64,000 bases of DNA. Origin: Anaeramoeba flamelloides. Its lineage: Eukaryota; Metamonada; Anaeramoebidae. Numbering within the stretch: position 1 is the stretch's first letter; every line of letters starts with the position of its first letter. The stretch spans positions 1,612,001-1,676,000 of the forward strand of contig JANTQA010000033.1 of NCBI GenBank assembly GCA_027625915.1, given 5' to 3'. Positions 38,038 to 62,100 of this stretch are shown here, in pieces. Below the pieces are notes generated by a model. It ran no database searches. It was not told where the DNA came from and saw only the letters and a program-made list of their open reading frames with translations. A program made the position numbers and the translations under genes.

Positions 38038-39174
38038 CTAATACAAACATTTACGGTTCACAATTGAAGATCCCGTTTCGTTATATTCAGCTTTTGTATA
38101 ACAAATATTTGGAAATTTACTCAATGAGGACAGAATTGAGCCGCCAACCCATACATTTGTATATTGTTGATTCGAAAACTGTATTTGAACATTCATTGTT
38201 TTTGGAATTAACTTTTCGAGCTCAACTTTTAATCGATCTTGCAGCCCAGGAAATTGGAATGTTCTACCAGAACAAATTATATTCGCAAACAGATACTTTC
38301 TGAGATCAATTTGCGAATTCATTATCGAATTATACAGGATTTCATGTATTCCGGGTGCCTTCAAGCCAAATAAAGAGGGCCGAAATAAAACTTCTGTACA
38401 CATGAATAATTCGTTCTCAAAGGAAAGAACTTGCCCATTGGGCAGTTTGTAACTTTTTGTCTGTGGCAACGACTTGTTTGTTGACTTTTCCGTTTCTTCA
38501 TCAAAACACGTCGGGCAAACATAACAGAATTTTTCTTTAATCTCACGTGCAATCTCTTTCTTGTATGAGAGCACCGATAGGCCAGACGCCTCTTTCTTTT
38601 TCTCTAGCATACTCATCAGATAGCCTGTGACATCGCAACCTGCAAGATCATATTTACCTCTCGACCTGGCAATTTGGTATCCTTCGAAAAATGATTGAAC
38701 AATCGTGCACCCTTCACCAATGTTCAGAGAAACACCCATGGTTATTCCCGAGGAGTAAAGTGCCAGCACGCACTGATTTTCAATGTACATGGAAGGAACA
38801 TTATATTTTTCAAACATGATTTCGGCCATTTTTTCTCTGTTCTTTGGTGGGTTCAGTTTTTTGTCGGTCAAAAGAATCGGGTACTGATCGGGATCCACTT
38901 TTAATGCATCAGAAAAAGTGTAGTTCCAGATCTTTTCCATGTCACCCCAATTCGTAACAACACCCCGTTCAATGGGGTAACTCAAGTTTAAAATTTCTCT
39001 TTTCGATTGCGCTTCTTCTCCAACAAAATATTTTCCCTCTTCGTTTTGAATCACAAATTGCTCTTTTGTTCTTCCAACAACTGTAGAAAATTCTGCTTGT
39101 GGCGTTTCTTCACCAGAAATGCCTACTTTTGTAATACCAGATCCGTTGTCAATTACAATTGAAACAGATTCCAT
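38038..39174 (-). CDS. Divergent actin / actin-like protein
   Basis: Single exon of 378 residues, collinear with actin over its whole length: IDNGSGITKVGISG (phosphate loop 1), EEAQSKREILNLSYPIERG, TNWGDMEKIWNYTF, PILLTDKKLNPPKNREKM, DLAGCDVTGYLM, REIKEKFCYVC, GIHEILYNSIMN, VWVGGSILSSLSKF and a C-terminus IVNRKCLY (actin usually ends IVHRKCF). Nucleotide-handling positions differ: phosphate loop 2, DSGDGVTH in actin, is NIGEGCTI here (Asp154 to Asn, Asp157 to Glu, His161 to Ile), and GGTTMYPG is GRTFQFPG. The loop-1 lysine and the Gln137 equivalent are kept. It may therefore bind ATP but hydrolyse it poorly (inference). The codon use is normal and no intron is needed. It is not a clear member of a named Arp family. 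Confidence 0.92.
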   Translation of the reverse strand: MESVSIVIDNGSGITKVGISGEETPQAEFSTVVGRTKEQFVIQNEEGKYFVGEEAQSKREILNLSYPIERGVVTNWGDMEKIWNYTFSDALKVDPDQYPILLTDKKLNPPKNREKMAEIMFEKYNVPSMYIENQCVLALYSSGITMGVSLNIGEGCTIVQSFFEGYQIARSRGKYDLAGCDVTGYLMSMLEKKKEASGLSVLSYKKEIAREIKEKFCYVCPTCFDEETEKSTNKSLPQTKSYKLPNGQVLSFENELFMCTEVLFRPSLFGLKAPGIHEILYNSIMNSQIDLRKYLFANIICSGRTFQFPGLQDRLKVELEKLIPKTMNVQIQFSNQQYTNVWVGGSILSSLSKFPNICYTKAEYNETGSSIVNRKCLY

Positions 39175-40849
39175 ATTGAAATTTTGGATTTAAGAAAAAA
39201 TGAAATTTAATTCCTGTTCTTGGAATAATTAATGGGAAAAAATTTTCAAATTATATTCCTGATTTTTCAATAAGAGACTTTCAATTATACTATTTCTTTA
39301 AAAACTCTATACTGTCTCAAAGTAAAAAAGAAAAATAAGATGAAGATTTTTTTCCTATTTAGAACTCAAACACTACAGTCAGTTTCACTTTTAAGGTACA
39401 AACTTTCAACGAAATTTAAGGCACAAAAAAAATCTCAAATTAAGGCACAAAATTCAAATTCTCGTAAAAACAAATTGTCAAAAAATAAAAATTCCAAATT
39501 TTGTGCCTTAATTTGAGATCTTTTTATGTCTCAAATTCCGTTGACAGTTTGTGCCTTAAAAGTGAAACTAACTGTAGTATCGTTAAAAAATCAAATTGAA
39601 ACCAAGAATTAAAATTTACAAGGAATTGAAACTATTCAACTGTAAATCGAAAATTACCCTTCGATAAATGATCCTAATTTCTATTAAAAGAAAGTTTTTT
39701 ACGTTCGTTTTCCAAAACAATGATTATTTTGAAATTGTTGGAAAATATGTACTTTTTTTTCATTATTGAATTTGTGGTGTTAATATATAAAGGCTTTTTT
39801 TTATCTGAAATAAAGAAGTTTGTAAAAAAGATGAAGAAAAAATTTCCACTTTGAGAAATAATATTGTCATTCTCTTGACTGAAAACTAAAGAGATTGAAA
39901 AATTTTGATCTTGAGAAAATCAATTGGTATATTAGTAACCCCTTGTATCTCATCAAAAGGTATCTTAGTGTTTCTGAATGCTTAGATATAGTAATTAAAA
40001 ATATTTTGATATAAAAATTTTAGTTATAAAAGTCCTTTTGTTTTTTTAAACTTACTCTTACCTTTTTTTTCTTCAAAGTCTGTTTAATTTTTTTTACTTC
40101 TTATTTTACAAATATTTAATTTCTGTTTGTTTTATTTATTTTGGTATATTTCAATAAAATACTTTTTTGTTTTGGAAGGAATGGTCAAGAATATTTGGAA
40201 ATTAATATACACAACAAGAAGATAAATAAACTGTTGCCAAGCGCCATAGAGTTCCATCGAATCCTAGGTTCATATAAATTGAATAGGATAAAAAAAAATC
40301 AAAAATTTTACTCAATTCTTTTTTATTCTTTCAAATATAACTGTTTTTTTTTAATTTTAGATTTAAAAAGAAAATGTTAAAAATTTTCCTTTTATTTTGA
40401 GAAATATAAAAAAACCAGGACAAACAATATTTAAAATGTAAGGGGTCAACTTCTATACTAAAATTTAGAAAATTCACAAATTGGTTAAATAGATATTCTT
40501 ATGTTTATGATAAGAATAAAATAAAACGTAAAAATCTTGCGATCTAAGCAAAAAAACACATCATAACTATGAAATAGATATGGATGTCAATAATTTTTTA
40601 TGGAATTGTTTATTCTATGAAGAAAATCAAATACAAGAATTTAATATTTAATCTAAATTAACAAAAATAAGAAGTATACCCTCTTTTATATTATTCAAAA
40701 TAATGACTAATTATTTATCTATTTCTTTTGTTAGTGATAAACAAAATTATGATTTTTTATTGAAATTTCTAAACAAAAATTCAGAAATTCGCAAAGTAGA
40801 GTCAAGTGATATCAAGTATCTTCGATTTTCGTCAAGTTTCAGGTTTTCT
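39175..40849. other. Intergenic with one MITE and hairpin debris
   Basis: Apart from the element at 39376-39574 and a hairpin-family piece near 40231-40345, no gene or RNA signal is recognised. Confidence 0.35.
39376..39574. mobile_element. 198-bp palindromic MITE with GGCACAAA iterons, copy 2
   Basis: TA at 39374-39375 and 39575-39576. It starts CAGTCAGTTTCACTTTTAAG and ends with the complement (one mismatch). Each arm holds three AAGG(C/T)ACAAA-type iterons spaced about 20 bp apart. It lies about 200 bp upstream of the actin-like gene start. Confidence 0.75.
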
Positions 40850-41341: not shown

Positions 41342-43360
41342 TGGTTAGCATCTACCTAGGAGAAGATTACGATCAAAGTAAACTAAATTTCATAATAAAT
41401 GGCCCATCTTACATTTGAATAATGAATTTTTTTTTTACCATTTTGAAGTTTTTCCTCTTACAATGAAAAGTTTGCAAATAAATCATTTTTTCTCTTTTTT
41501 ATTTTTTCAATAGTTTTTTGTTAAAATGGATAATGAAAATGAAAAATTGGAAAGAAGTAACCGATGAATTAAAGAAAAATTTGGTTTCAAATATGAAAAA
41601 GAGATTAGATTTAGTTATTCAAATCTTAGGAGAATCGATAAATTTGTTTTTTTACTTTTTTAACTTTTCTATTTTTTATGTAATGCTTCTTTCAAAATAA
41701 AATGGCCCAATTTTTTAACAGTTTTTTTTATTTTTTTTTCTATTATTTTTAGACAAAAAATAAATATCTCTTGAGTATAGTATTGAATATTAAAATTTAA
41801 AATTTTATATTATAATATATAACTTCTATTATTAAAAATATTTTGATTTAAAATTTGATTTTTAATCGGCCGTTTATTATGAAAGATTGTTTATGTTGTT
41901 ATTGGGCCTAACTAAATTAGTGCTACATGGTTTAAAGTCTCTAAAAAATCCATTAGTAAAGTATTAATATTTGTTGATCTCATCAATTAAAAATGATCTA
42001 AGTGTTTGGTAAAAAACCCCAACAATTTCAGAATAAAATCGACATTTCACCCTAAATTTAAAGGTAGAGTTATCAATATTCAGACTCCAAACTTGGAAAA
42101 TATTGTTCTTAAATATATTGGCATAATGTTGATTAGTTGTTAACCAATTTGTTTTTTTTGTAAAAATTAAATAATTAACTCAACAGATTTTTTTGGCAAA
42201 TTATTTCTGAAATCATTGAAATATATTGATGTTGCAATTATCTTTACCAAAAGCAAACAAAAATAATAAGACTTTGGGTTTTTATCGTGAGCATTCTTGA
42301 GTTAATCTTTGAAATTACAAAATTAAAAAATAGTTATTTTTGGAAGTTCTAAATAGTAATTGTTAAACACCTGGAATTCTATTATTTTGGTGGTTCTATT
42401 TTTTTGTTTATTAAGGGATTAGCCTCACCATAGATTTCTCTATAATCAAAGTATATTGTAATTGGGTGCAAATGGTTTTAGTGCACCATGGCTCAAATAG
42501 CTCTAAAAAATCTATTATAAATCTTATTGCACAATAAATTATTACATTTTTTACTAATGCTCTTTATTAAAAAAATTTCATTTTGAAAAATTTTTTTTTA
42601 ATTCCTTTATCAAATCTAAAAATAAAAACCCAAAATACAGTATTCCAGTATTTAATAAAATATATTTAGAACTTCCAAAAGTAATTATTTTTAGAATTTT
42701 TAAATTTCAAAGATTAACTCAATAATCATCAACATAAAAGCACAAAGACTGATTATTTTTGTTTTCTTTTGATAAAGATACTTATAGCATCAATATATTT
42801 CCTTGATTTGAGAAATAATTTGACAAAAAACTTTATTCGTTAATTATTTAATTTTTAAAAAAAAACAAATTTTTTAGTAACTAATCTACATTTCGCCATA
42901 AATTTAAGAGAGATATTTTATGATTTTGTAGTCTGAATATTGATAATTCAACCTTTAAATTTATGGCTAAATGCAGATTTTATTCTGAATTTGCTGGGTT
43001 TTTTACTAATACATAGATCATTTTTAATTGATAAGATCAACAAATATTACTACTTTGCAATCGATTTTTTAGAGACATTTAAATAATGTAACACAAATTT
43101 GGTTAAGGTCCAATAACAACATACTTTGATCCTAGGCTTCTCCTTGGTAGACGCTAATCCCTTAAAGGAATTAAAAAAGAATTTCCAAAATGAAAATTTT
43201 GAATTGAGATACTTCGTAAAAAATGTAATAATTTATTGTGAAATAAGATTTAAAATAGATTTTTTAGAGCTATTTGAGCAATGTCATACTAAAACCATTT
43301 GCACTGTATTTCAACATACTTTGATTATAGAAAAATCTATGGTGACACTAATCCCTTAAC
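41342..43360. repeat. Cluster of palindromic TTAGC-family TTAA-type elements
   Basis: At least three element ends occur: about 41342 (GGTTAGCATCTACC), about 42416 (TTAAGGGATTAGCCTCACC) and, reversed, about 43150 and 43355 (GGTAGACGCTAATCCCTTAA; GGTGACACTAATCCCTTAA). The stretches 41885-42415 and 42665-43080 are inverted copies of each other (for example, TTGATGTTGCAATTA near 42228 and its diverged complement near 42790). TTAA sits at each end. The cluster lies directly upstream of the exportin-7 gene and so occupies its 5' flank. Confidence 0.5.
41527..41645 (+). other. Exon-like segment upstream of the repeat cluster
   Basis: One frame starting at the ATG 41536 reads about 36 helix-forming codons (MKMKNWKEVTDELKKN...), with a coding-like composition unlike its T-rich flanks. 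No plausible partner exon is found, and the adjacent exportin gene appears complete without it. It could be a first exon or a gene remnant. Confidence 0.22.
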
Positions 43361-43450
43361 TCTTTATTTCTTCGATTCAAAATTATCATTTTTTCTTGTT
43401 TTTCACTTTTTTTTTTTTTTTTGTTTCTTATTGGTTTGCTCTCTTGGGGA

Positions 43451-46400
43451 ATGAATATCAAAGAATTTGAAGATCTTTCAAAAATCTTTTTTGAGAGTAC
43501 AGATCAAAAGGAAAGGCTCATGGTTGACAAGGAATTAAAGGCCATTTTAAAGGAACCAAACAGCCTGTTACAAATTTATCGTTTCTTGTTCGACAACAAA
43601 AAATACCGTGTCAAATACTTGTGCTTATTGTTATTACGAGACTTGGTTGCCAAGTTTTGGATGCAATTAGAAGAAGAAATTCAAAGTGAATTGTTAAACG
43701 GGCTGTTGAACAATATCAGTTTCATTGTTAATAGCAAGTATCGAGAATTATTTACACCAGCAAGTTTAGTCTTTTCGCGAATGTACAAGTTTGGGTTCTT
43801 AACAAATTCAAAGATAAGAAATTCAGAACTGCTGTTGATCATTAAAAATGAATTTTTCAAAAGCCAAAGCTCGTATGACAATCTGGTTGGTATCTACTTA
43901 TTTACAAACTTAGTGACGGAGTGCAATATGCAAATCAAGCCCTTTGAAAGTCTTACTCACCACCGATTATTTTTAACATGGTTCCGTGATAAGCAATTAT
44001 TTTCAATTTTCAGTTTGGCGGTCAAATATTTAAGGTTGTCTACAATGGGGCTAGGCTTAGTCAGCAGGAGCCAGACGGACTTAATAATTGAAATGAAGAA
44101 AAATGAAAAGCAATTTTACGAAAAGAATAAGGACTACTTTAAGAACAATAGTGATAATATTATTGATCAGAATTTGCCCTTAAAGGTCTTCGACTCATCG
44201 CTGGAATTAATTCTCTCCATTTTGAATTTTAATTTTTATTTTGCCACTGCCCCGCAAGATTTGGATTCTACAAATAATTACCGAATAAGGATCCCAATTA
44301 AATGGTGCAGAAAATTCAAATTTAAGGTGACGCAAATGCTACCGTCTTTAGTGAAGCAATTTTTGCAAATGAGCAAAAAATATCGGAATGTGAATCGTAC
44401 AAGGAATGGCAATGATGACTATTATGAGGATTTAAATTCAATGAGTTTTGAAACCACTCGGATATCAAAAATATTGAAATGTATAACCTTGCTGTGCACA
44501 ACACACTATTCTTTATTTATTGGCAATAACCAATTAATGAAGCAATTTCTGAGATACTTATTGGGCTCCATTTTATTAATCTCGTCTAATCACAAGCAAA
44601 TCTTCCATACTGGGAAAATGAAAATAGACTTTTCCCAATTGAATCAGAAATTAATCATCAATTGGAAGCTGTCACAATTAGAGTCGTGCGATTATTTTGA
44701 TAAATGGGCGACTTCCCTATTTGAATTTGCCATAGAAACTTTAGAAATCAATGATTTGAGTCAAATAAATTCAAATGTTATTTATTATTTAGCTTCCTTC
44801 TGGAGCACTTTAGCTTCCAAAATGAAAAGCAATAGCCAAGACAATAAGAAGTCGAGCAATATGGATAAAATAATAATACATGATAAAATAATCAAACTAT
44901 TATCAATCATTTCAAAAACATTAATCCAAATCAAAATTGAACAGTTTTCTAATCTAAACGGAATTGGCAATGGCAATTTTGAAGAATCAATTGAAGATCT
45001 GTTTTTACCAAAATCAAGTTTTTTATTGGAAATCAAAATTTTGCAAGATCTGGTCCGGTTTGAATATCTTGAAACTAAAAATTATATTGTGGAACAATTA
45101 CACAACTCCTCCAGAATTTTGGAAAACAATACTAATAATGAAGAGGCAATTAAAAAAATTTCTATTATTGTAATGATAATAGGCACTTTAATTTCACGTT
45201 TTCAAAAGGAAATTAATTTTATGAAAAAACAAGAAAATCAAAAAAATAAAAAAAAAATGATTTCTTTTCTCTTTGAAGAAAATAATTTTAAAATTAATAT
45301 TGATATAAATGATGATGTTAGTGATAATGATGGGGATGATTATCTAGTAAATATGGGGATGCTTGAGAAAAACAAGGTGGGAAATAGAAATGAAGGTGAA
45401 AATGTTGTTGGAAAAGAGGAATACTTTCTTTGTGGGAAATTAGATATTGAATTGATATGTAAAGTAATTGAATTGATTAAATGGAATGAAGATATATGGA
45501 TTCAAAATAATCAAAATGAACGATGTGTAATTTTGGAATTAAGTATTCTATATTTTTTACAGAATTTTTTAAAGGTTTATTATACATCATTTTTTAAAAA
45601 ACCAAATCTATTTTATAAATATTTAATTGAATTCGTTCCCGATTTTAAAAGTGAACAAGATATTTTTTTATTTATATTTATTAAAATTATTGAAAATTTA
45701 AAAAGTGCCTTGATTCAGAAAGAAGTCTTGTACCAAAATTTAAAAATTTTTAAAAAATTAATTAATTCAAATATTTGGCCTGATTCTTTTTTCAATTTAG
45801 ATCCTATATTAAAAATACTTTCCAATCATAACGAAAATGATTTCCCATTTTTAAAATCTTTATCTTTCGGTTCGTTAGATAAAAAAATTAGAATATTATT
45901 TTACCAATGCTTAACTAAATTATTAATAGCAGAAAAAATGGAATTAATTTTTTTAGAAAAATTTGAAGATTTCATAACTCCCTTTGATATAATATTTGTA
46001 GAAATTAAAAATATTTTAACCAATATAAATGATAAAAATAATAATCTTATAAAGAATAATAATAACTTTATAAAGAATAATAATAATATTCATATCAACA
46101 ATAATAATATTCATATTAAGACCCAAAATGATGATGACGATGACGAAACTATTGAACAAATTTTATCATTTCTTTTATTCTTTAAAGGCTTTTTCATTGA
46201 AATGTCAACTTCAAAATATTTGAATTATCTATATGATTGGTTATTTCCTGAAAAATTTGAAATTTTGAATTTAATTTTTTCAAGATATTGCCAAAATTCT
46301 ATAATTACAAATAACATTTTGCAATTATGGATGTGCTTTGTTAAAGATAACAATCAATTAAATTTATTAGATTCATTAAATAATGGATATGAAAATAGAT

Positions 46401-47266
46401 CAAACTTATTTATGCGCTGTAAATTTTGCTTACAAAATTTGAATACATTCCTGAATGATTATTTTTTGAAAATTGAATTTACTAAAAATAATGGTTTAGA
46501 GATTAATGATTATAACTACATAAAGACTATAAAATATTGCTATGTGTTACTCCGAAAAATAATTCTCTCCTTACGAAAAAATTTAGGAATATTTGAATAT
46601 TATCAAGACGAAACACTAAATCAGGCAATTAATAATATCCTATTGCTATCAGCAAAATATTCTCTCGAAAATTTATTAATTTTCCCCAAATTATCAAAAA
46701 AATATTATTTCTTATTGCTAACTTTAACAAAAGAAAAAATCTCTTTTATAATCAATTTAAATCCTGAAATGTTTGATCTCGTTTTTTCAACAATTAAAAT
46801 CGGTTTAAATTCAAAAATTAAATATAAATTTAAGAAAAATTGTCAAATACTAGAAATGATGTTAAAGTTTTATTCAAAAAATTATAATAATAAATTTCTT
46901 AAAGATGAGAAAAAAAAAGATCTTGCTATGAAATTTCATAACACATTAATCAAATATCAAGATGATCTAATTTCAATAATGTCAGACTTTTTCCAATTAA
47001 TAGTTTATGAAAACGAAGTGAATACCTATCTAATATCACAGCCTTTACTTATTTTGATCTTCTTATTCCAACATGAATATTTAGAAATACAAAAATCCTT
47101 TATTCGAGTAGTTAACAATAAAGAAAAGGGTATACAGATACAGAATCTTTTCGATCAATTAATGAAACCAATTGAAAATAACCTTAATTCAAAAAATAAA
47201 ATTTATTTTGCAAATAATTTAAATGTTTTTAGAAATAAAATTCGTGAAACTGGGTTTCTTTTTTAA
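43451..47266 (+). CDS. XPO7: Exportin-7 (RanBP16-type karyopherin)
   Basis: Nuclear export receptor of the importin-beta superfamily, which carries cargo out of the nucleus with Ran-GTP. Single exon. I chose the ATG at 43451 because the following LSKIFFESTDQKERLMVDKE aligns with the exportin-7 N-terminus ([20 protein letters not shown]). Other diagnostic blocks: SLTHHRLFLTWFRDKQLFSI (cf. [20 protein letters not shown]), NVIYYLASFWSTLASKM, the IPIKWC segment, YPKLSQ-like FPKLSKKYYFLLLTLTKEKI, and the C-terminal QPLLILIFLFQHEYLEIQKS then FDQLMKPIENNL. At 1271 residues it is longer than animal exportin-7 (about 1090) because of Asn- and Asp-rich inserts (e.g. residues ~870-900). HEAT repeats are predicted throughout. 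Confidence 0.88.
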   Translation: MNIKEFEDLSKIFFESTDQKERLMVDKELKAILKEPNSLLQIYRFLFDNKKYRVKYLCLLLLRDLVAKFWMQLEEEIQSELLNGLLNNISFIVNSKYRELFTPASLVFSRMYKFGFLTNSKIRNSELLLIIKNEFFKSQSSYDNLVGIYLFTNLVTECNMQIKPFESLTHHRLFLTWFRDKQLFSIFSLAVKYLRLSTMGLGLVSRSQTDLIIEMKKNEKQFYEKNKDYFKNNSDNIIDQNLPLKVFDSSLELILSILNFNFYFATAPQDLDSTNNYRIRIPIKWCRKFKFKVTQMLPSLVKQFLQMSKKYRNVNRTRNGNDDYYEDLNSMSFETTRISKILKCITLLCTTHYSLFIGNNQLMKQFLRYLLGSILLISSNHKQIFHTGKMKIDFSQLNQKLIINWKLSQLESCDYFDKWATSLFEFAIETLEINDLSQINSNVIYYLASFWSTLASKMKSNSQDNKKSSNMDKIIIHDKIIKLLSIISKTLIQIKIEQFSNLNGIGNGNFEESIEDLFLPKSSFLLEIKILQDLVRFEYLETKNYIVEQLHNSSRILENNTNNEEAIKKISIIVMIIGTLISRFQKEINFMKKQENQKNKKKMISFLFEENNFKINIDINDDVSDNDGDDYLVNMGMLEKNKVGNRNEGENVVGKEEYFLCGKLDIELICKVIELIKWNEDIWIQNNQNERCVILELSILYFLQNFLKVYYTSFFKKPNLFYKYLIEFVPDFKSEQDIFLFIFIKIIENLKSALIQKEVLYQNLKIFKKLINSNIWPDSFFNLDPILKILSNHNENDFPFLKSLSFGSLDKKIRILFYQCLTKLLIAEKMELIFLEKFEDFITPFDIIFVEIKNILTNINDKNNNLIKNNNNFIKNNNNIHINNNNIHIKTQNDDDDDETIEQILSFLLFFKGFFIEMSTSKYLNYLYDWLFPEKFEILNLIFSRYCQNSIITNNILQLWMCFVKDNNQLNLLDSLNNGYENRSNLFMRCKFCLQNLNTFLNDYFLKIEFTKNNGLEINDYNYIKTIKYCYVLLRKIILSLRKNLGIFEYYQDETLNQAINNILLLSAKYSLENLLIFPKLSKKYYFLLLTLTKEKISFIINLNPEMFDLVFSTIKIGLNSKIKYKFKKNCQILEMMLKFYSKNYNNKFLKDEKKKDLAMKFHNTLIKYQDDLISIMSDFFQLIVYENEVNTYLISQPLLILIFLFQHEYLEIQKSFIRVVNNKEKGIQIQNLFDQLMKPIENNLNSKNKIYFANNLNVFRNKIRETGFLF

Positions 47267-57680: not shown

Positions 57681-59152
57681 TTTATCTCAAAGGTTCAAAA
57701 ATAAATAGATCCAAATTAATAAAACTCAAGATTATCATGATCAAATGATTTTAGAAGACCTTTGTTTTTTTCTATGATTAAGACAATCGATGGATAAATA
57801 TCTGATAATCTGAAATAACTATTTTTCTATTTTAATTGGAAAATGACAATATAATTTGATGATTGGAGTCAATTGTTTTTGAACAATACTTTTTTGAATT
57901 TACCAAACCTTCATGAAGTTCAAGGTATCTCTTGAGTTTGACTTCTTAAACTCTTTGGTTAAAATTTCCAATACCAATATAAATTAAGAACTTTTTTTTT
58001 CTCAAAATCTTGATTTTTTAAATACAAAAAACATTGATCTTTAAAAAAGCTTTTATACAGAGAAAATTTTTTTATTATGAGACACAACGCTATTAGTCCA
58101 TGATGAGTGTTATAGTTAAACATTTTTTTGGGGTGTTTATGACCAATTTACAATCGGATATCCTTTGATGAATATGACCATTCGATAACTTTTGTTGATT
58201 TGTAATAAATTTATAAAAATTACTATTGTTGGATTTTCTATTCTGAATTCGAATTATGTAATTTGTATTTCCCAATTCTTAGTATGTAAAAACAAGATGT
58301 ACAAATATTCTTCTCAAAATTTAAAGGATCAAAAAATACACTTGGTTTCAAGGATCTGAATTCTGTTTAAACAATAATGAGTAGTGTAAATTAATGGTGT
58401 ATTTTGTGTTATCAATTCATCATTAAAATTTTCTTAAAAATCATAATATTGACTCAATGAATAGAGAACAAAAGCCCACCAATAAGTTGAAAAAAAGCCT
58501 TAAACAAAAAATATGGATTTTTTTAAAAATGTAGGTAAAGAATTATGAAGCTATCAAAACACGAAAATTTTAATTTCTTGAAAAAAAAAAATAAAAAAAG
58601 ATCAATTGTCGTTCAATCTAAAAATTAACAAAAACATCATTTAATCTTGTAACCTTCCGAAATTAATTTAAAAATTTTTGAAATAAAAACCAATTCATAT
58701 TTTTTAATCCCTTAAACATTAATTCAAGATCTAAACTCAACTCCCAATTTAAATGTGAAACAAAGTATGCTCACATTGGAATTCCTAACTCCAAATACCT
58801 AGGTTGGAAAAATATACACTTATAAATATTAAATATCGCTTTCGAGGAAATCAACAGTGCTTTTTTTCTACTTTTGTTGTCCAACTTATGATTATTTGTG
58901 AATGGTTCATGATCAAGTCAAAAGTCAAGGAAAAAAAAAGTAATTAATAAAGCTTTTCAAATTGAAAAGTACGAAACACTTTTATTAATAATTGAAATTT
59001 CCTCCCATTTGTTCAGAAATACTCTGAAAAGTATCCCTTGATAATACCAAAGGACTTGGGGTGAATAAGTTAAGATGATTATAAGATCAAAATTTATCCT
59101 TTTATAATCATTTTTTTTCTTTTCAAACTTCAATATATTTATTATAAAACAG
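57681..59152. other. Intergenic, no supported gene
   Basis: No exon or repeat end is recognised upstream of the phosphatase start. Confidence 0.4.
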
Positions 59153-62100
59153 ATGAAGACATTTGAATATAACCCTTACTTTAAAAAGTTCCTTAGGTTT
59201 CTAATAGACGAAGAATACACAATTCCAAAAAAAACTCTTTTTCAAGTGAATAAGCAAATTAAAAAAGAATTTATAACAGACGGTAATGTGATTGATATTA
59301 ATTCGCCTGTTTGTGTTATCGGAGATGTTCATGGGTATTTTTTTTTTTCATCACTTTCGTTTTTTTTTTTTTGTAATCATTCGTCTCTGGTTTTTTTAAC
59401 AAAACTCTTATTTCTTATTCTTTTTTGCTTTTATCCTTACCAAAGTCAATTTTATGACTTTCTATCAGTGTTCAAAATTCAAAGTATCTCTGGTTTGGCA
59501 GAATTGAAACTGAAAAAAAAATATTTATTTCTCGGAGATTATATTGATCGTGGGAAATTTTCATTGGAAACAATATTTTTCCTTTATATATTAAAACTCC
59601 AGTAACTTATACATTTTATACGAATAACTATTTGAAGGAAAAAGAATCAATACAGATTTATTAATTGTTTTTTTCTAATTATTTTAATTTATGAAATTTC
59701 ACAATAGGTATCCAAAAAATATTTTTTTGCTAAGGGGGTAATTCAATTTAATTAAACAAAGCTTCTGGGTTCATTCACTCATTGTTATTGTCTTTTTATT
59801 ATTCTTATTTCCAAATAGCAACCATGAAACTGAAGACGTTGGTAAAAGAGTAAATCTTTAATTTTTTTTTTATGTCTTTTGTTTTTTATGATCTTGAAAT
59901 TATCACAATCCAATTATCAGGTTGTGAACAAACAAACAAACAAATGTAAAAAATATTAATGTCTATATTTCCAATAAACATTTTATTTTAATATTTTAAA
60001 TTGACTTTATTCTCAAACCTGATCATCAATACATTTTATGAAATGGTTAATTAAAGAAAAAATAAAAAGAGGCATGTTTATTGGTAATAATTCAATTAAC
60101 CAAGTTATTAAGGTTTCTTCATATTTTCTGCTCTATAAATCTTGAAATATAGTGTATGAACCACTCAAAAAAAATTATTAAAAAAAAAGTTAAGAAAAGA
60201 AAAGTCAAATAATAGCAACTCTTAAAGGATTATATGAAAAAATATTTTACAAGTATATGTTTCTACCCTTAAGGGTGATTAGTTATTGATTTATTTTTCA
60301 TTCATTTCCCTAAAAAGAATTTTCATTCTGTAGAAATTTGACAAAAAAATTACAAGTTTCAAAGTTAAAAAAAACACCCACAAAAAAAGTTGACAAATTG
60401 TTTTATATAAGAAAATTTTAAAAATAAAAAACTGTAAGGGATTTTCAAGAACAAATTTAAATTTGAAAACATTTTAAACTGATAAAAGAAATTATAAAAA
60501 AATATTTAGAACAGTTTGTGGAATTATTTTGTGTTTATAGATTTGAAATGGGCATTCTGGAATGATAAAATCAAATTTTGGTATGATCAGAAGAATAGGG
60601 TAAAAGTGTTTAAATTCTGAAATTGTGGAAATTTCCCATTTTTTGTAAAAGAAACTCCGAATTTGTAAATTTATCTGGGATTATGGAACTCTTTTAAGAG
60701 TATTTTTATCCATAATTTAACTATTTTTACCTGAAAATCTAGTACTTGTACAAAAAACTTTTTAAATTTTGAAAAAAAAATAAATCAAATCAAAAAATAC
60801 TTTTTTGATAGCATTCCTGTTTTTATCCAAATTATTTTCCCAATAGATTGTTCATCCAAAGTAAAATATATCGTTATTGGAAATAATTTCGATAGGACCC
60901 GAAGCAATATGTATATTTTTGTTTTTAAATTTTTTCTGAATAAATTTCAAATTTTTTTCATAACCAAAGTTTTGAATTGAAAAAAATACCTAAATACGAA
61001 AATAAGTCAAAAAATCATTTTTAATTGTTAATATTAGGAAAATTGTTGTATAATAAGAAAAATTTAAAATCAGATAGTTTTTATAACAAACAAAATTTTT
61101 TATGAACTAAGTTATAAACCGACCTAAAGTTTATTTAAGTGGGATATTTATAGAATGCTCATTGAATTTAATCATAATCTAATTATTTCTACTTTTTTTG
61201 AAAAAAAAAAAAAAAGTTTTTAATAAATGTTTTAATGAATTTGGAAAATCTTTTTTTTTTATTTTTGTTTTTTGATTGATTAAATATTGTTTTGAAAAGG
61301 TGTAATTTAATTAGTCAACATTCCAATAAATAAATACTCGAAATTTTGAGAGTTTTATTCTTAAATAAAACAAAATTATTCACTAATTACAAAAACAATT
61401 TCATTACTGTTGACAATTTAAAATCATGTAAAGGATTATTTTCAGGTAACATATTTTTTTCAATTCGAAAAGTAAAAATCTTTTTTGTTAAATTTTCAAA
61501 CTTTTAAAAATAAAATCTAAATTTTAACTCTGGACAGCATACCTTTACTCAACAATCCTTGAATTTTAATAAATAGCATTTCTTCTAACTCTAATTCGTT
61601 AAAAAACTCGTTCTGGGGAGTATATTTAAATTAATCAGCTTAATAAGGTGCTACATTAATTCTGTTGACTTTTTTTTTTTTTTGGCAATAATAAAGAAAT
61701 AAATAAAGAGTATAGATCCTGATCATGAAATTATCCTGAATAAATAAAAATAAAACTCTTGTTATCAACTTTAATCTATATATTTTTATACCATATATAT
61801 ATATATAAAAATATAGATATATATATATTTAAAAATAGATATATATATATATATATATTAATAATTCTGAGAAAACAATAATTATTTTAAACTGTTATTT
61901 TTAATGGAAAATTGACATTTCATTTTAAATTATCTCTTATTTCTTATTATTTTTTTAATTTTATTATTTATTTTAATTTTTTTGTATTTGGTTTATTTTT
62001 TGTTGTTCGAATTATTATTTAGGAGCATGGGACAAAAAGTTTTTGGTATAAATTGAAAGTTTTATATGGTAGTGAATCTGTTTGGGAGAATTATATGCAA

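Follow-up and report, generated by a model that had tools for sequence, protein, structure and literature searches.

By its sequence, the minus-strand gene at positions 38038-39174 of the window, i.e. of the whole 64-kb stretch analysed (C34:1612001-1676000), is a divergent eukaryotic actin; it is not a conventional actin and not firmly any Arp. To judge from the residues it has lost, it belongs to the many actins of this genome in which the ATPase site is eroded, at least some of them under constraint. We consider it, with a probability of roughly 0.6, to be a lineage-specific paralogue that was selected for a role requiring the actin fold and not the normal ATPase cycle.

An intact actin frame with altered nucleotide-binding residues

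The initial annotation had described a full-length actin relative. This was borne out by a 378 aa frame running from ATG to TAG without internal stops, by the Pfam Actin profile (PF00022), which placed the protein in the family with 343 bits (cut-off 27) and was covered from position 5 to 409 of 410, and by comparison with PDB chains, of which the best 60 of 165 were all named actin (top score 381.5 bits). Identity over the alignment was 49% to rabbit alpha-actin (1lcu, muscle) and 48% (177/368 identical) to the conventional actin of the same genome, which is below the high identity of a conventional actin, the genome's own copies being 88% identical to the rabbit protein. Since a tblastn search of the window with this protein returned only the gene itself and one match with an E value of 2.2, we conclude that the window holds no second actin. 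The features of the gene, all but the first located by alignment, are the following.

38038-39174, minus strand: divergent actin gene, one open frame of 378 aa with TAG stop, recognised by Pfam and PDB matches
39136-39150, minus strand: phosphate loop 1, DNGSG, residues 9-13, kept
39025-39069, minus strand: DNase-I loop (D-loop) region, residues 36-50, mostly rewritten
38857-38862, minus strand: Pro-rich loop, Lys105-Lys106, corresponding to actin A108/P109
38773-38775, minus strand: Gln134, the equivalent of Gln137, kept
38710-38724, minus strand: phosphate loop 2, NIGEG, residues 151-155 (D154N, S155I, D157E)
38701-38703, minus strand: Ile158, at the position of His161
38245-38268, minus strand: adenine-side loop GRTFQFPG, residues 303-310, with G302R
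38161-38163, minus strand: Tyr338, at the position of Lys336

Numbering all changes as in rabbit actin, alignment with the rabbit protein and the genome's own actins revealed that D11, S14, G15, K18 and Q137 are kept, and that the replacements comprise D154N, S155I, D157E, H161I, G302R, T304F, M305Q, Y306F and K336Y. Phosphate loop 2 had been read in the initial annotation as NIGEG, the His161 equivalent as Ile and the GGTTMYPG loop as GRTFQFPG (G302R, T304F, M305Q, Y306F), all of them correctly. Its statement that conventional actins hardly vary at these positions needs qualifying at S155 and Y306, since the conventional actins of the same genome read DTGDG and GGTSMFPG; Phe306 is thus not a change here, and S155 was already variable. 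The combination of D-S/T-G-D-G and His161 that marks conventional actins is absent from the window gene (NIGEG, Ile158). Further changes had gone unmentioned: K336Y, two lysines in the Pro-rich loop (A108K/P109K), a D-loop that is rewritten and shorter by one residue, and inserts of 3 residues near 199-203 and of single residues near 222 and 235. Altogether the protein retained 59 of 82 ultra-conserved sites, defined as those identical in rabbit actin, the own conventional actin, Arp1, Arp2 and Arp3.

Predicted consequences for ATP hydrolysis

The catalytic roles of several of these residues are described in two papers. In actin, the attacking water is held by Gln137 and is activated by a second, bridging water, which D154 and H161 hold in place; Q137A slows hydrolysis, and ATPase activity of a Q137A/D154A/H161A actin was not measurable (PMC9646518). 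Hydrolysis is triggered by a flip of His161 that the A108 methyl group drives, A108G impairs hydrolysis, and P109A has only a minor influence (PMC10062479).

In the window gene both holders of the activating water, D154 and H161, are replaced, and Q137 is retained. Strongly slowed ATP hydrolysis is the expected outcome: hydrolysis would be slow or nil because the D154/H161 water is no longer held, or may be merely reduced because Q137 is kept and D157E is conservative. With its catalytic-water residues replaced and the whole actin sequence kept, the protein would fall among the pseudo-ATPase actins, a functional and not a phylogenetic class. We infer that nucleotide is still bound. G302R and K336Y may have altered the affinity, or could mean that the protein binds no ATP. 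Under the preferred reading, a protein that retained the actin fold, phosphate loop 1, Lys18 and Gln137, and in which D154, D157, H161 and the Pro-rich loop were replaced, would bind nucleotide and turn it over slowly or not at all. Slow hydrolysis had already been proposed in the initial annotation, and the loss of both D154 and H161 predicts it; the accompanying picture of one odd gene did not stand up to the genome search.

Loss of catalytic residues across the actin family

Searching the genome (254,072,379 bases, 76 contigs) with the window protein gave at least 126 matches, exon pieces included (best 109 of 254 candidates scored), and the Pfam Actin profile gave at least 110. Among the matches listed, 16 at 376.7-376.8 bits were conventional actins scattered over many contigs; seven of these were read (L012-L018) and the other nine assigned by equal score. 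The one conventional pair compared, L012 and L013, showed a dS of 0.35 at 99% protein identity. Besides the window gene itself, no full-length match among those listed exceeded 48% identity. To look for a recent duplicate, the genome was searched at the DNA level with the gene plus flanking sequence; apart from the gene, the best 40 of 4710 candidates contained nothing but the upstream repeat.

The best actin frame was extracted from 68 loci, 13 of which were dropped (seven short pieces, six duplicate conventional copies). The resulting alignment held, besides references, 55 genome rows: six conventional-like (L012 and L019-L023, the latter 81-99% identical to L012) and 49 divergent, including the window gene. 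At least one of Q137, D154, D157 and H161 was missing in 48 of the 49 divergent rows, among which there may be nuclear Arps; only L028 kept all four. At least two were missing in 46/49 and three or four in 41/49. When the count was restricted by hand to the 21 rows with roughly 47% or more identity to rabbit actin (window gene 49%), 20 still lacked one or more catalytic residues and 18 had lost H161. The site changes are therefore the rule among the divergent paralogues and not the mark of a lone gene, as had been implied.

Across the 82 ultra-conserved sites, D157 (3/49) and H161 (4/49) were the least kept in the divergent rows; Q137 was kept in 11/49, seventh from the bottom, and D154 in 24/49. 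Among the best kept sites were G301 (48/48), G13 (46/48), K213 and G156 (45/49 each), G302 (44/48), D11 (43/48) and G182 (43/49); two permuted rows, L036 and L045, are misaligned at residues 11-18 in this table. Phosphate binding is not simply preserved family-wide, since G15 (7/48) and G158 (9/49) were also widely lost.

Lateral transfer was considered for the window gene, which first looked foreign, with a GC3 of 0.361 vs 0.275 in the neighbouring exportin-like ORF and a GC content of 0.379. It was rejected because this GC content is typical of the actin family here, conventional L012-L018 ranging from 0.42 to 0.44 and the 49 divergent rows from 0.28 to 0.42. Two scans of viral contigs found no viral actin relative. 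Ten bacterial-labelled contigs (L001-L010) carried actins 34-46% identical to the window gene, possibly through metagenome-bin contamination; that of L007 (Ca. Finniella inopinata) starts with a leader resembling a signal peptide and carries the loop ESGYNS, that of L009 combines a leader with a broken loop 2, and that of L005 reads DIGDS.

Constraint and decay

As estimated by a Nei-Gojobori script, six recent pairs of altered-site paralogues are under constraint, with dN/dS between 0.108 and 0.390 (L043/L044 0.188, L053/L054 0.126, L055/L056 0.390, L068/L070 0.279, L063/L064 0.108, L031/L034 0.225). Only L031/L034 is more than 50% identical to muscle actin of rabbit; the other five pairs, at 28-39%, may include nuclear Arps. 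When L012 was set against conventional or conventional-like copies, six comparisons gave 0.012-0.192. For the window gene itself dS was saturated in every comparison tried (pS 0.707 and pN 0.321 against L012) and the best full-length paralogues are 48% identical, so that no sound dN/dS can be given.

A silenced copy or early pseudogene whose frame is open by chance is very improbable. Its long branch and poorly resolved place would suit such a copy, and some other actin matches of the genome do carry internal stops, but the 378-codon frame is intact, without stop or frameshift, at 52% protein divergence, whereas neutral decay of L012 simulated to 48% identity yielded 13.65 stops on average, at least 5 in each run, and no open frame in 300 runs. 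Constraint on the recent paralogue pairs of the family likewise argues against it. The decaying, isolated copy envisaged in the initial annotation as the alternative thus agrees with the branch and disagrees with the frame.

Phylogenetic placement

In a tree of 59 rows the window gene joined L024 and L033 weakly (85/83), its end branch measuring 0.84; Arp1/2/3 nested among the paralogues beside L028. In a tree of 25 rows it stood on a branch of 0.88 without the L024/L033 grouping, and Arp1/2/3 fell outside all paralogues (92/81). Of the Arps, both trees covered Arp1, Arp2 and Arp3. AU tests on the 25-row tree gave p values of 0.30 with the window gene held together with L024 and L033, 0.0504 with Arp1, 0.001 with Arp2 and 0.46 with Arp3. 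Tyr178 occurs in only 3 of the 49 divergent rows, namely the window gene, L024 and L033; Gly302 has been lost from the same rows and from L066 (gap in L049), and Cys159 is found in six rows, these three among them. The data favour a small sub-group of the window gene, L024 and L033, and stop short of proving it. Placement with actins and Arps, which the initial annotation had called for, returned a long, poorly resolved branch for a gene that is one of at least 49 divergent paralogues.

These results also bear on whether the gene is a diverged orthologue of Arp1, Arp2, Arp3 or a nuclear Arp, which we regard as improbable. Nuclear Arps (Arp4-Arp8) often lack the ATPase residues, the AU test is compatible with Arp3 and borderline for Arp1, and the nesting beside L028 in the larger tree points in the same direction. 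Against this, a clade with Arp2 was rejected, Arp1/2/3 lay outside all paralogues in the smaller tree, every one of the best 60 of 165 PDB chains was an actin by name, and the genome has other pieces resembling Arp1 (L071-L073, 63-66%) and Arp2 (L082, 71%).

Assembly surfaces

Using provisional interface site lists, we compared the window gene with the own conventional actin and found identity at 12/34 sites of the pointed face, 23/45 of the barbed face, 12/26 lateral sites and 10/15 sites of the groove; filament-forming Arp1 scored 17/34 at the pointed face and 14/15 in the groove. The contrast between surfaces is small and Arp1 shows the same trend, so it is at most suggestive of weak homopolymer formation. 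An AlphaFold2 model built from a 9-row alignment reached a mean pLDDT of 70.4 and a pTM of 0.66, and its best 50 Foldseek rows were actins or actin-containing entries, a few of them complexes; as the rmsd was about 7 A, the active site was not read from the model.

The protein could instead be a polymerising isoform with slow turnover, which makes or joins filaments that are long-lived because hydrolysis is slow. Slow hydrolysis would follow from D154N/H161I, and Q137, phosphate loop 1, the overall sequence and 10/15 groove sites are kept; however, the pointed face including the D-loop is the least conserved surface set tested, 3 residues are inserted near 199-203, and 48% identity to the own actin is far below the 81-99% of L019-L023 to L012. 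We therefore hold this explanation to be rather unlikely. Within the reading of a paralogue selected for its fold, a regulatory or scaffold actin (an end-binder, a copolymer poison or part of a complex) seems somewhat likelier than a bulk homopolymer because the barbed-end groove is better kept than the pointed-end face, and we infer a cellular role as a non-turnover or regulatory actin.

Permuted and tandem actins

Two of the 68 loci encode circularly permuted actins, and six without a detectable N-terminal part were not judgeable. The first, L083:100-5709, is the same gene as L036:3100-7899+ (G000:C48:20565699 on). Its 1869-aa ORF carries an actin that is cut in the D-loop and inserted in an alpha-2-macroglobulin-like protein, in the order MG2, bait region, actin about 51-373, KE-rich linker, actin 8-48, A2M, TED and receptor domain. 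The ORFs of six host-part relatives, 48-59% identical, are shorter (1454-1509 aa); those of more distant ones span 1729-2132. The second (L045:1794-5066, G000:C48:8630793 on) has the same kind of D-loop cut after a VWA domain, in the order actin 41-371, KE linker, 7-48, with the D-loop partly duplicated. Two further ORFs of 992 and 1035 aa (L046:831-3809 and L052:2930-6037, minus strand) contain two tandem actin domains each, the first degenerate (some 20-25% identical to actin and Arps) and the second better kept.

Few eukaryotic sites are as well conserved as the ATPase site of actin, and in this amoeboid protist it is eroded in dozens of actin copies, at least some of them constrained. Such actins are natural experiments that separate functions needing hydrolysis from those needing the fold alone, and the circularly permuted and tandem forms are natural tests of cutting and linking the fold. 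A tentative extension, which we think may well be wrong, is that the genome maintains a second large repertoire of catalytically dead actins, including the sub-group of the window gene, L024 and L033, which would be nucleotide-locked components with a structural or regulatory function, conceivably in the elaborate membrane and symbiont system of the cell, actin being used as a domain toolkit (permuted and tandem forms) and not only as a dynamic polymer.

Upstream sequences and neighbouring genes

Immediately upstream of the gene lies one further feature.

39181-39191, minus strand: AAATCCAAAAT just 5' of the ATG, resembling the leader of some conventional copies; weak and post hoc

The motif AAATCCRAAAT stops 6 bases short of the ATG. 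We regard it as weak, since the window contains 3 matches vs 1.53 expected and the motif was chosen after being seen. About 200 bases upstream of the ATG, a fold-back element of 207 bases (39372-39578) has 58-nt arms that are 88% complementary, and at least 40 dispersed genome copies of it show 85-94% identity. Elsewhere on the plus strand of the window, the long ORF at 43352-47266 has an exportin-7-like TPR match of 71.6 bits and no other Pfam match, and 59108-59605 covers the beginning of a gene for a calcineurin-like phosphoesterase, which seems to contain a short in-frame intron. The window also encodes KE-rich proteins, which are typical of Anaeramoeba.

Comparison with known systems

Anaeramoeba genomes are A+T-rich, and that of A. 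flamelloides has more than 1100 ribosomal protein genes according to the main text of the Anaeramoeba symbiosome paper (PMC11550330), which contains one word starting with 'actin' and does not describe the actin family in the parts examined. The ribosomal protein eL19 had 13 matches in the genome. Together with the low GC of the window (0.20-0.27 per 4 kb) and its KE-rich proteins, this points to A. flamelloides as the probable source of the DNA. The term 'permuted actin' had no mention in the open-access literature searched.

With conventional actin (L012-L018, 1lcu) the window gene shares length, phosphate loop 1, Gln137, Lys18 and the C-terminal SIVxRKC, but it is 48-49% identical and has D154, D157, H161, A108/P109, G302, K336 and the D-loop changed. 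Arp1, Arp2 and Arp3 belong to the same family, at 53%, 46% and 38% identity to this genome's conventional actin; unlike the window gene, which lacks the first two, their reference rows keep DSGDG, H161 and Q137.

Among protists, Paramecium tetraurelia likewise has a large actin family. It comprises at least 30 genes, and some of its divergent members are poor in nucleotide-binding residues; most subfamilies, however, are reported to keep these residues well (PMC1852557), whereas in the present genome catalytic residues are missing from 48 of the 49 divergent rows. The Dictyostelium actinome (PMC2441452) similarly has a block of identical conventional actins, accompanied by divergent isoforms, by Arps and by filactin, a long actin protein, but its 16 other isoforms are reported to keep the conventional motif profile and the actin domain of filactin to be highly conventional-like. 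Chlamydomonas NAP1 is also a divergent second actin alongside a conventional one; it differs in being a single gene and in that, by the title of the cited paper, it can provide F-actin function.
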